Positions 37,804 through 59,187 of a stretch of 64,000 bases of DNA are shown piece after piece (the first letter of the stretch is position 1; every line of letters begins with the position of its first letter). A program made the position numbers and the translations under genes. This stretch comes from Herbiconiux sp. L3-i23. Its GTDB lineage: Bacteria > Actinomycetota > Actinomycetes > Actinomycetales > Microbacteriaceae. The stretch covers positions 1,240,001-1,304,000 of the forward strand of contig NZ_AP025737.1 of assembly GCF_023734115.1 (NCBI RefSeq), read 5' to 3'. Under the pieces are notes generated by a model. It saw only the letters and a list, made by a program, of their open reading frames with translations, was not told where the DNA came from and did not search any database.

Positions 37804-38037
37804 AACACCGACAGATCTGGGCACCTCACCGTGAGTGACTTGCCCACTTCACCCCGTCGGAGCGCCTCAAGACAGGGTGGAGTGGGCGAGTCGACGAGAG
37901 CGGCGTGCCGAGGTGCCCAGTTCTGCGGGTGTCGGCCGCCTAACACCGACAGATCTGGGCACCTCGAGGTGATCGTCTCGGTGACGTGCCCATCTCGTCC
38001 GTCCGAGCGTCTCAGGACGGGGTGAAGTGGGCGAGTC
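37804..38037. repeat. Nested and partly duplicated palindromic repeats between ctaF and the Nudix gene
   Basis: This gap between convergent genes is filled with repeats. A 24-base unit at 37804-37827 recurs exactly at 37942-37965 and, as an imperfect inverted copy, at 37910-37935. Between the inverted copies lies a second palindrome, arms 37837-37858 and 37871-37892 with a 12-base loop. A decayed copy of that palindrome is at 37982-38003/38016-38037. The arm at 38016-38037 is the exact reverse complement of 59132-59153. No coding potential is seen in 37775-38035. Confidence 0.85.
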
Positions 38038-44042: not shown

Positions 44043-44082
44043 CGAGACGCCCGCCCGATCCTCGGATCGGGCGGGCGTCTCG
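44043..44082. terminator. Bidirectional terminator between trpD and the class A PBP gene
   Basis: CGAGACGCCCGCCCGATC (44043-44060) pairs perfectly with its inverted copy at 44065-44082 around a CTCG loop. This 18-bp GC-rich hairpin is four bases after the trpD stop and 29 bases beyond the PBP stop at 44111. It has no T-run on either side. Confidence 0.7.
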
Positions 44083-55517: not shown

Positions 55518-58500
55518 TCAGCGGAAGTCGCGGGACACGTGACGGATGCCGAGGGTGAGCGGTTCGAACCGGTCGGCGATCACGTTGATGACCCCCTCGG
55601 GTGTGCGCTCGAGCACCCCGCGGATGATCAGCGCGGGAGCCTCGCGGGCGACGCGGCGGTAGCGCTGCCAGACGCCGACGCCGCAGATGACGTTCACCAT
55701 GCCCGTCTCGTCCTCGAGATTGATGAAGGTCACCCCCGACGCGGTCGCCGGCCGCTGCCGGTGGATGACGACGCCGCCCACTTCGATGCGGCGTCCCGTC
55801 TCGGCGGTGCGCAGCTGCGTCGCCGAGAGCACGCCGCGCGCGCCGAGCGCGTCGCGGACGAACGACACGGGATGCTCGCCCGGCGAGATACCCGTCGCCC
55901 ACAGGTCGGAGGCGATCTGTTCGGCGTCGCTCAGCATCGGCAGCAGGGGCGGCTGCACCGCGACCGCGGTGCCGACGAGGTAGTCGGGGCGCTCCCGCGC
56001 CGCGGCGCCCGCACCCCACAGCGCCTCCCGCTGGGTCATTCCGAGCGAGTCGAACGCCCCCGCCGCGGCGAGGGTCTCGAGCTGGGCGGACGTGAGCCCT
56101 ACCCGGCGGGCGAGGTCGGTCTGGCTGGTGAAGTCGCCGCCGCTCTCGCGCTCGGCGACGATGCGCTGCGCGGTCTTCACGTCGAGCCCTGCGACTTCGA
56201 CGAGTCCGAGGCGCACCGCGTAGTTCGCGTCGCGGCGGTGCCGGGCGTCGTCGGCGGGCGCCGTCTTGTCGAACCGGGGCGTCACCGGCGGCTGTTCGCG
56301 CAGCAGACAGGTGTCCTCGCCGCTTGCCCCCACCCCCTGCATCCTGACCAAATCAAGGAGATTTCGCCCCTTCGTCCCACGTTCATGCCGATCGGAGCCC
56401 GTCGAGGCCCAGAATTCCTTGATTTGGTCAGCGGAGGGGGCGGTGAGGGGTTCGAGGTCGGCCCAGACGCCCGAGAGCAGGATGTCGGGGCGGCGGGTCT
56501 CGACGCCGTGGCGGCGGGCGTCGGCGGTCAGCGACTGCGGCGAGTAGAAGCCCATCGGCTGCGCGCGCAGCAGGGCGGCGAGGAAGACGCCCGGGTAGTG
56601 CAGGCGCATCCAGGCGCTCGCGTAGACGATGAGGGCGAAGCTGATGGCGTGGCTCTCGGCGAAGCCAAAGTCGGCGAACGCCTCGATCTGCCGGTAGATC
56701 ACATGGGCGGTGTCGTCGTCGATGTCGTTGCCGCGCATCCCGGCGTAGAGCTTCTCGCGCAGACTGTCGATCTTCTCGAGCCCGCGCTTCGACCCCATCG
56801 CGCGGCGCAGCAGGTCGGCGTCCTCGCCGTTGCAGTCGCCGACCGCCATGGCGATCTGCATCAGCTGCTCCTGGAAGATCGGCACCCCGAGCGTGCGTTC
56901 GAGTACCGGGATCAGCTTCGGATGCAGATAGCTCACCTGCTCCTCGCCGACCCGACGCCGCACGAACGGGTGCACCGCCTTGCCTTGGATCGGCCCGGGG
57001 CGGATCAGCGCGACCTCGACCACGAGGTCGTAGAACACCCGCGGCTGGAGGCGGGGGAGCGTCGCGATCTGCGCCCGACTCTCGACCTGGAACACCCCCA
57101 CCGAGTCGGCACGGCACAGCTGGTCGTAGACGCCCTGCTCCTCCTTCGGCATCGTCTCGAGGTCGAACCGCTCACCGAAGTGCAGGTCGGCGAGATCGAA
57201 CGCGTACTGCATCGCCGCGAGCATCCCGAGCCCCAGCAGGTCGAACTTCACGAGCCCCATGTAGGCGCAGTCGTCCTTGTCCCACTGCAGCACCGTGCGC
57301 TTCTCCATGCGGGCGTGCTCGATGGGCACCACCTCGCCGACGGGACGGTCGGTCATCACCATTCCGCCGGAGTGGATGCCGAGGTGCCGGGGGAACTTCA
57401 GCACCTGCTGGGCGAGGTCGACGACGGGGCCCGGGATGTCGTGATCCTCGGACTGCACGTCACCGCCCCACCGTTCGACCTGCCGCGACCACGCGTCCTG
57501 CTGCCCCGTCGAATGGCCGAGTGCCTTCGCCATGTCGCGCACCGCGTTCTTCGGCCGGTAGCTGACGACGTTCGCGACCTGCGCCGCGTTGTGCCTTCCG
57601 TACTTCTCGTAGACGTACTGGATGACCTCCTCGCGCCGGTCGGAGTCGAAGTCGACGTCGATGTCGGGCTCCTCCTCGCGCAGGCTCGAGAGGAACCGCT
57701 CGAACGGCAGCCCGTAGAAGATCGAGTCGACCGCCGTGATGCCGAGCAGATAGCAGACCGCCGAGTTGGCGGCCGACCCGCGCCCCTGGCAGAGGATGCC
57801 CCTGCTCTTCGCGAATCGGACGATGTCGTAAACGATCAGGAAGTAGCCGGGGAAGTCCTTCGCCTCGATCACGTCGAGCTCGCTCGCGATGCGGTCGAGG
57901 TGGCTCTGCGGCGCGTTCGGATACTTCACCGGCACGGCGTCGTTCACCAGTTTCCGCAGCCAGGTCATCGGCGTGTGACCGTCGGGCACCTTCTGCTTCG
58001 GCAGTCCCGGCCTCGCGGTGCGCAGCGAGAACGCGAGGTCGGCGGCGAGATCGACCGTGTTCTCGACCGCGCCGGGGTAGCGGGCGAACCGGGCGGCCAT
58101 CTCGGCGCCGGAGCGCAGGTGGGCGCCGCCGCTCGCGGGCAGCCAGCCGTCGAGCTCGTCGAGGCTGCGTCGCGCCCGCACCGCGGCGAGCGCGGCGGCG
58201 AGCCGGTGCCGGTCGGGGGTCGCGTAGTGCACGGCGCCGGTCGCGACGATCGGCATGCTCCGGCGGCGGGCGAGTTCGGCGAGGGCGTCGTTCACGAGGC
58301 TGTCGGCGGGGGAGCCGTGGTCGGTCAGCTCGATGACGACGTTGCCCGGGCCGAAGAGGGCGACGAGGCGGTCGAGTTCGCGGGCCGCCGCGTCGAGGTC
58401 GGGCGCGGCCGGGTCGCCGAGCGCGGTGCGGACGAGGCCCTTGCGGCATCCGGTGAGCACCATCCAGCCGCCGCCGGCGCGGTCGGCGAGGTCGGCGAGG

Positions 58501-59066
58501 TCGAAGCGCGGGCTGCCCTTCTCGGCTCGGGGGTCGAGCTGCGCGGCGGTGATCGCCCCCGCGAGCGCGTGGTAGCCGGCCTGCCCTCGGGCGAGGACGA
58601 CGAGATGCGACCCCTCGGGGTCGGGGACGCCGTTCTGGGGCTTGGTGAGGCCGAGGGTGAGCTCGGCGCCGAAGATCGTCTTGACGCTGTGCGCCTCCGC
58701 CCCGTTCCGGGAGGAGGCGTGCTGCTCGGCCGCTTCGGCGAAACGGGCGACGCCGTAGAAGCCGTTGTGATCAGTGAGCGCGAGCCCGTCGAGACGCAGT
58801 CGCATCGCCTCCTCGAGGAGCTGCTCGGGCGACGACGCGCCGTCGAGGAAGCTGAAGTTCGAGTGCGCGTGCAGCTCGGCGTAGGGGACGACGGGGCCGT
58901 CGATCGGGGGTGCCTTGGGCGGGGCAGGCCGGTAGGGTGCCCGTTTCACCGACCAGGCGGGGCTGTCGCCTCCGTCGGCGTCATGCGGGCGCGAGGTCGG
59001 CCGTGTCGCCTCGGTGAGGCGCTTCTCGAACTCCGACCAGGGGATCGGCGGATTGCTGTACGGCAC
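55518..59066 (-). CDS. dnaE2: Error-prone DNA polymerase DnaE2 with an in-frame palindrome insert
   Basis: This 1182-residue mutasome polymerase performs SOS-induced lesion bypass with ImuA' and ImuB. It begins [14 protein letters not shown], then the PHP domain ([17 protein letters not shown]), the palm with [30 protein letters not shown] and the C-terminal [22 protein letters not shown] 59066 is chosen because a LexA-controlled promoter lies directly upstream and an ATG at 59084 falls inside the LexA box. Residues 879-908 ([11 protein letters not shown] to NLLDLVR) are encoded by a palindromic insert, with AT-richer codons than the rest. Family relatives lack this segment as far as I recall. 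Confidence 0.93.
56344..56431. repeat. 88-bp palindromic element inside dnaE2
   Basis: CTGACCAAATCAAGGA (56344-56359) is repeated in perfect inverted orientation at 56416-56431. The 56 bases between them show weaker symmetry. The element keeps the dnaE2 frame open and encodes about 30 residues between the fingers and helix-hairpin-helix regions. Its base composition differs from the host gene. No transposase and no clear target duplication is present. Confidence 0.9.
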
Positions 59067-59072
59067 CGACCA

Positions 59073-59101
59073 ATCATCGAACATATGTTCGATCGGGTCA
59101 A
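59073..59101 (-). promoter_or_regulatory. SOS promoter of dnaE2
   Basis: On the minus strand TTGACC (59101 to 59096), a 17-base spacer and GATGAT (59078 to 59073) form a -35/-10 pair. GTG 59066 follows six bases later, so the transcript should be leaderless. The LexA box fills the spacer. Confidence 0.7.
59077..59092. promoter_or_regulatory. LexA (SOS) box of dnaE2
   Basis: TCGAACATATGTTCGA is a perfect 16-bp palindrome matching the actinobacterial LexA consensus TCGAAC-N4-GTTCGA. It lies between the -35 and -10 of dnaE2, where LexA binding would block RNA polymerase. Confidence 0.93.
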
Positions 59102-59131
59102 TCGAGTCGCGGCCGTCCGCTGACCAGCGCT

Positions 59132-59187
59132 GACTCGCCCACTTCACCCCGTCCGCGACGCCGGAGACGGGGCGAAGTGGGCGAGTC
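59132..59187. repeat. Dispersed palindromic repeat between dnaE2 and the POT gene
   Basis: Two 22-base arms (59132-59153 and 59166-59187) match in 21 positions around a 12-base loop. The left arm is the exact reverse complement of 38016-38037 and differs by one base from 37837-37858. It sits four bases beyond the stop of the POT gene and 30 bases upstream of the dnaE2 promoter, so it may also work as a terminator. Confidence 0.9.

Follow-up and report, generated by a model that had tools for sequence, protein, structure and literature searches.

A palindromic element in frame within dnaE2

Why does a perfect palindrome lie in frame inside the gene of a repair polymerase? The question is raised by Herbiconiux sp. 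L3-i23 (genome G000, 3.18 Mb), in which a window of 64,000 nucleotides, meaning the whole stretch of DNA that was analysed, contains dnaE2 on the minus strand (55518..59147; a 1209-aa frame) with an 88-bp element at 56344-56431. The element opens with a 16-bp left arm, CTGACCAAATCAAGGA (56344..56359, + strand), continues through a 56-bp middle (56360..56415, + strand) that carries the conserved core of the type-A elements described below, around CACGTTCATGCCGATC, and closes with a 16-bp right arm, TCCTTGATTTGGTCAG (56416..56431, - strand), which is the exact reverse complement of the left arm. Across the window it alone combines perfect 16-bp inverted arms with a span between 60 and 130 bp, and 40 block-shuffles of the window produced no such repeat.

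A first-pass annotation of this DNA had described a perfect 16-bp inverted repeat that bounds 88 bp of dnaE2 and leaves the frame open, and both descriptions are borne out. Its estimate of about 30 encoded residues also stands, while their numbering (879-908) does not; the element encodes approximately residues 906-935 of the 1209-aa frame, and a later start codon would shift these numbers. The codons are AT-richer than those of the host gene, as had been claimed (third-position A+T of 0.38 in the element vs 0.07 in dnaE2), and the proposed location between the polymerase core and the helix-hairpin-helix region agrees with the Pfam matches, with the finger domain (residues 642-807) before the element and HHH_6 (976-1041) after it. 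Alignment against two congeners without the insert gives a net gain of approximately 32-34 residues at this site; since 88 is not a multiple of three, other length changes must have accompanied the insertion.

A family of alternating, helically phased elements

The suggestion that further copies be sought in the genome proved fruitful. With up to two mismatches allowed, the arm pattern has 73 and 75 matches on the two strands of G000, compared to 5 and 2 for a reversed control pattern, and pairing the arms in 26 stretches around these matches yielded 67 elements, each 87-89 bp long, which are distributed over 25 loci. The elements start with CTGACC and fall into two arm types, A (CTGACCRAATCAAGGA, n=34) and B (CTGACCRAATGCAGGA, n=33), with both arms of the same type in all 67. 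Neighbours within arrays are almost always unlike in type (38 of 39 pairs), so that A and B alternate, and are separated by linkers of 6, 12-17, 25-27 or 36 bp, plus one of 91 bp. Leaving the 91-bp linker aside, the 38 remaining linkers share a best common period of 10.5 bp (R 0.87), a value that none of 20,000 sets of uniform draws from 6-36 bp equalled.

A helical period is also present inside the elements. The A/T positions of type-A middles repeat approximately every 10 bp, and type-B middles are periodic at 10.0-10.25 bp, far above within-sequence shuffles, even as their sequences diverge widely; across type A and the elements of Naasia aerilata and the uncultured Naasia SP80, the period is 9.75-10.25 bp. 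In each copy the arms are far better preserved than the middle; for type B the underlying alignment covers 32 of the 33 elements. Arm complementarity exceeds that of shuffles in G000, G006 (N. aerilata) and G008, and shows no excess over shuffles in G001 (N. lichenicola) and G003. Arm position 7 is paired in 61% of 123 elements and varies independently on the two sides, and the type-B middle, with 0.60 of A/T-A/T and 0.55 of G/C-G/C positions, is not self-complementary. Taken together, the pairing of the arms and the non-self-complementary middle are more easily reconciled with two inverted sites recognised in double-stranded form than with a hairpin.

Several other origins were considered for the elements and rejected. 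An RNA hairpin or terminator finds no Rfam match at the dnaE2 element or at the elements of 13 element loci (a tRNA and a TPP riboswitch lie elsewhere in these loci), and it also fits poorly with the unpaired middle and with position 7. Insertion into existing hairpin loops would require more structure in the flanks of 80 solo elements than was seen (complementarity of 5.65 vs 5.41 in shuffled pairs, sd 0.13), and viral carriage was set aside as the full pattern had no match in viral contigs.

An exact pattern scan of public genomes from 84,980 species, which may omit G000 itself, matched 25 stretches, all of them in N. aerilata, N. lichenicola, uncultured Naasia (SP80), a Microbacteriaceae MAG and Pseudolysinimonas yzui. 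Elements are also present in five congeners, where, among the matches listed, the arm types are genome-specific with both arms altered together: GAAGGA and CTTCCC..CACGGA in G008, CAAGGA and CACGGA in G006, while the outer bases in G003 are different again. In N. lichenicola, one element is present twice (L156, L157) with 1,138 identical neighbouring bases, which represents a segmental duplication.

According to a crude custom gene caller, the 97 clusters fetched from six genomes lie between convergent (33), tandem (50) or divergent (12) genes, with only 2 inside a gene, dnaE2 in both cases (the dnaE2 copies of G008 and G003 are outside these 97). Gaps without elements separate 34 convergent, 136 tandem and 65 divergent gene pairs; convergent pairs are over-represented among the gaps that hold elements (33/95 vs 34/235; p 7e-5). 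This excess, the A/T phasing near 10 bp and the 10.5-bp phasing of the linkers are what might be expected of immobile binding sites that serve the host, at which the nuclease-like protein described next, or another wrapper such as gyrase, organises DNA or buffers supercoiling between genes. A parallel exists in the E. coli gyrase motif, which is reported to be 130 bp long with a GC period of 10.75 bp; the same enzyme cuts within BIME-2 repeats (PMC6379681). Evidence against such a role is given below.

A predicted nuclease gene between paired elements

In G000, G006, G008 and G001, pairs of elements 960-1032 bp apart flank a homologous gene of approximately 290 codons. The G000 gene (C1:1039918-1040799, outside the window) is bracketed by two type-B elements, and the unit of approximately 1 kb has room for this single open reading frame only. 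The product is a predicted nuclease: it matches DUF559 at 38.9 bits, above the cut-off of 20.6, and its N-terminus resembles the winged-helix domain AbiEi_4 at 19.0 bits, which is below the Pfam cut-off of 25. E193, D220, E230, D232 and H237 are conserved in 10 aligned homologues, and the profile matches PDB 3hrl (E 7.9e-9) and 3r3p (E 4.6e-5), the latter deposited as 'Mobile intron protein' and taken by us to be I-Bth0305I. For the N. aerilata protein, single-sequence structure prediction reached a mean pLDDT of 35.5, too low for the model to be used. The profile and the conserved acidic residues thus indicate a catalytic domain like that of Vsr/DUF559-related homing endonucleases; unlike these, the protein has an additional winged-helix-like domain at its N-terminus, and its gene lies between two palindromes with dispersed solo copies and not, as far as could be seen, in an intron or intein. 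In the genus search, close members (54-60% identity) occurred only in G000, G006 and G001, and twice in G008, and the other matches were paralogues at 32-42%.

Type A has no bracketed nuclease of its own among the paired elements of G000. One type-A pair 2.0 kb apart (564862/566981) encloses two open reading frames that by eye resemble an ABC transporter, and no nuclease.

An AbiEi-like N-terminus joined to a nuclease domain, together with arms that are preserved where the nuclease is present, could also belong to a defence or addiction system, with a nuclease that attacks DNA and palindromes that either mark or shield the host chromosome or else titrate the enzyme. We regard this as improbable. 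Matches to defence models, AbiEi included, were weak (best E 0.0018), the space between the brackets holds one gene, and such a system would leave the paired bracketing and the alternation of types without a reason. In AbiE toxin-antitoxin systems an AbiEi antitoxin lies next to an AbiEii toxin gene; the unit here has a single open reading frame, with an AbiEi_4 match below the cut-off.

Bracketing of other DUF559 genes by unrelated palindromes

We scored a locus as bracketed when a palindrome lay on each side of the gene and all four 11-nt arms were alike, with at least 10 of 11 counted as a pass. Within the genus, 17 of 22 DUF559 loci passed; after removal of the four loci that gave rise to the idea and merging of two pieces of one broken gene, 17 new genes remained, of which 12 are bracketed by palindromes of other sequence and five fall below the threshold. 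No control passed in this test (0/32 window segments and 0/26 dnaE loci).

DUF559 genes are common beyond the genus, and a sample of 59 genomes of the order contained them in 44. Seventy order loci were fetched (31 that were either a genome's best match or the third DUF559 gene of G000, and 39 picked by hand), and three that were too short were dropped. Of the remaining 67, 26 passed, two of them from G000 (hence 24/65 elsewhere), and 41 fell below the threshold, six of these reaching 9. The passing loci come from 17 genomes and 11 families, and a simple pattern detected a DUF559-like motif between the brackets in 20 of the 26; two passes (L223 and L227) resemble long near-identical repeats and may be of a different nature. 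Controls again gave no passes, whether window segments (0/43, one reaching 9), shuffled loci (0/67) or segments from element-bearing loci (0/138, two reaching 9).

These results bear on the possibility that the elements are ordinary MITEs mobilised by a DDE-type transposase encoded at another site, with the DUF559 genes as passengers. Dispersal and terminal inverted repeats (the 16-bp arms) are MITE-like features, and the gene between such ends is here the DUF559 nuclease. We consider a MITE very unlikely. Against it stand the pairwise bracketing of DUF559 genes by palindromes of unrelated sequence, recorded across 11 families, the far better preservation of arms than of middles, and the fact that no target duplication was noticed. 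Neither by eye nor in pooled flanks was a target duplication obvious, in a set of genomes that includes no close strain with an empty site.

The window itself contains further palindromes. A 56-bp palindrome at 59132..59187 (GACTCGCCCACTTC...), overlapping the start of the dnaE2 frame, has the same arms (CGCCCACTTCRCCCC) as those bracketing the third DUF559 gene of G000 (C1:1551696, L222), making it one member of a second family tied to a nuclease. That family also contributes a single arm at 38019-38033, which lies next to a 58-bp palindrome at 37909..37966 (CGAGGTGCCCAG...), which shares its 17-nt arm sequence with a palindrome that adjoins a solo element at another locus (L079). Two further features of the window are a 40-bp hairpin resembling a bidirectional terminator (44043-44082, CGAGACGCCCGCCCGATCC...) and an Rfam mraW RNA (RF01746; 4349-4456, 59.3 bits).

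Arms track nuclease clades, and units differ in place

The arm family follows the nuclease clade. When 20 nucleases were placed in a tree, those bracketed by family I (that of the dnaE2 element) and by family III each lay on one side of a supported branch; family II requires two changes, since G007a has a bracket that did not pass and was given its own label, and the labels of G001b, G001d and G004c rest on sub-threshold brackets. Families II and III are also dispersed in the genomes. Pattern matches, in which nested arms may score twice, number 25 in G000, 14 in G004, 13 in G002, 9 in G001, 4 each in G006 and G003, 1 in G005 and 0 in G007 and G008 for family III, and 34 in G008, 23 in G007, 20 in G002, 15 in G006, 12 in G003, 11 in G004, 4 in G005 and 0 in G000 and G001 for family II; reversed controls for both families gave 0 in all genus genomes. 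Scored for three families in eight nearly complete genomes (G005, 68% complete, was excluded), with the family-I elements of the relatives taken from the matches listed, elements are present in 15 of 15 genome-family combinations with a matching nuclease and in 2 of 9 without (Fisher 1e-4), where the broken family-II gene of G008 was counted as present and a marginal match in G002 (E 9.4e-4) as absent. Both exceptions are in G003, which has family-I and family-III elements and no detected matching nuclease. A further family in another genus (G045) has six copies, two of them bracketing its nuclease, and was found in none of 20 congeners of that genome.

Sites were then compared between genomes. 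In G000, in G006 and on contig C17 of G008, the family-I unit has the same two genes as neighbours, while the units on G008 contig C6 and in G001 have no neighbour in common with that site. At the site of a complete unit of G008 (element, nuclease, element), one solo element is present in G000, and the genes on either side are homologous in the two genomes (56% and 80% identity). Among the matches listed, and with dnaE2 left unscored, the clusters sharing a neighbouring gene with a G000 site number 5/33 in G006, 4/16 in G008, 0/11 in G001, 0/8 in G003 and 0/1 in G005. The different places of the unit and the scarcity of shared sites support turnover and relocation.

Three observations speak against host-serving sites, which we consider unlikely: few positions are common to species, the families come and go with their nuclease clade in a manner that gyrase would not explain, and the nuclease residues are conserved. 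We favour instead, at a probability of roughly 0.6, that the elements are repeats of a REP-like kind, to which a homing-type wHTH-DUF559 nuclease binds and which it probably also spreads, in analogy to REP/RAYT systems with an unrelated enzyme. Several results count against this view: no insertion with a target duplication was seen, G003 has elements and no detected matching nuclease, type A in G000 lacks a bracketed one, 5 of 17 genus genes and 41 of 67 order loci fall below the bracketing threshold, the winged-helix match is under the Pfam cut-off, and arm complementarity in G001 and G003 is no higher than in shuffles. The family, its bracketing and the clade match are the most secure parts of this interpretation; binding, bending, cutting and spreading by the nuclease are what we infer from them. 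The N-terminal winged-helix domain would bind each arm as double-stranded DNA, placing two protomers on arms whose centres are separated by 72 bp, or approximately seven helical turns, and hence on one face of the helix. Such a pair could bend the A/T-phased middle, after which the homing-endonuclease-like domain would nick or cut, and repair would copy the element to new, mostly 3'-intergenic places. The element family is likely to be selfish.

The dnaE2 copy is an old one

dnaE2 matches were found in all nine genus genomes, and the proposed comparison among relatives revealed presence and absence at the same site. The element is present in G000, G008, G006 and G003, a decayed remnant persists in G004, G001 and G002 have a short linker only, and G005 and G007 have longer, unrelated linkers. 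The segment is thus neither conserved in all relatives nor, given the other copies in the genome, confined to this site. By this distribution the dnaE2 copy is old, being common to four congeners including the one with the remnant, and is no recent hop. It was probably inserted in an ancestor of several Naasia species and stayed in frame by chance in a permissive linker. In N. aerilata (L036, L038) dnaE2 is split into two adjoining matches (query 24-699 and 698-1208), which looks like a frameshift in the deposited sequence.

At positions where the amino acid is unchanged, codons ending in A or T are retained more often in the arms than in the rest of dnaE2 when G000 is compared to G006 (5/5 vs 3/64; p 5e-6), G008 (3/4 vs 10/60) and G003 (3/5 vs 5/62), and not when it is compared to G004 (0/3 vs 3/62); the counts are small, and G006 is the one comparison that is strong singly. 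Pattern and genus searches revealed no family-I element or nuclease in G004, among the matches listed. Given this retention, and its lack in G004, the dnaE2 arms seem to be maintained at the level of DNA wherever the family persists.

Comparison with known systems

The Rickettsia palindromic elements (RPE) are palindromes inserted in frame, and the family occurs in many protein genes. The first-pass annotation had likened the dnaE2 element to these, and the likeness holds insofar as the palindrome is repeated and open in frame within a protein gene (dnaE2 in four genomes, plus the G004 remnant). It is not, however, an isolated oddity: the family is nuclease-linked and almost wholly intergenic, dnaE2 accounting for both intragenic clusters among the 97. 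In E. coli BIMEs, different palindrome types alternate. The arrays described here share this alternation and intergenic location, and differ in their 88-bp units, helically phased linkers and enzyme; a link of BIMEs to gyrase is reported (PMC6379681). For some RPE, CGTC has been described (PMC3733652), whereas the arms here start with CTGACC.

The layout resembles that of the REP/RAYT 'REPtrons' (PMC3733652, PMC3116915): both have dispersed, mostly 3'-intergenic palindromes, a few copies inside genes (repair genes included), an enzyme gene flanked by its own repeats, with the DUF559 nuclease here in place of the RAYT, and multiple repeat families matched to multiple enzymes. In spite of this shared layout of dispersed palindromes and the enzyme gene that they bracket, a true REP/RAYT system is extremely improbable. 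The RAYT-type transposase (PF01797, Y1_Tnp) was detected in none of the nine genus genomes by a search that was positive in 5 of 14 control genomes, and we have not classified the system as REP/RAYT because this defining Y1 (HUH) tyrosine transposase is absent, a wHTH-DUF559 nuclease being present instead. REP sequences carry a GTAG or CGTC tag at one end and measure 20-40 bp (PMC3733652), whereas these elements measure 87-89 bp, begin with CTGACC in G000 in place of such a tag, and have long paired arms, seemingly recognised as double-stranded DNA, and helical phasing. As both the enzyme and the DNA architecture differ, we rate the system as a new kind, even though its way of life may be the same. 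No earlier description of DUF559-palindrome systems was found among the open-access papers searched, and this combination of repeat and nuclease is apparently of an undescribed kind.

Implications

Actinobacteria would, in our estimation, probably possess a second class of REP-like systems that evolved independently, in which palindrome families each have their own bracketed wHTH-DUF559 homing-type nuclease, with arms that co-evolve with it and several families per genome (at least three in G000). If true, the existence of this class would explain why 'AbiEi/DUF559' genes are so common in Actinobacteria, and the REP/RAYT way of life would have arisen again with an unrelated nuclease. DUF559, a common family with a function that is unknown, would gain a partner as well as a role that can be tested. 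Arrays of alternating elements with helical phasing would be a natural setting in which to study DNA bending directed by a protein, and the dnaE2 copy would represent an element that survives at the DNA level inside the gene of a repair polymerase.
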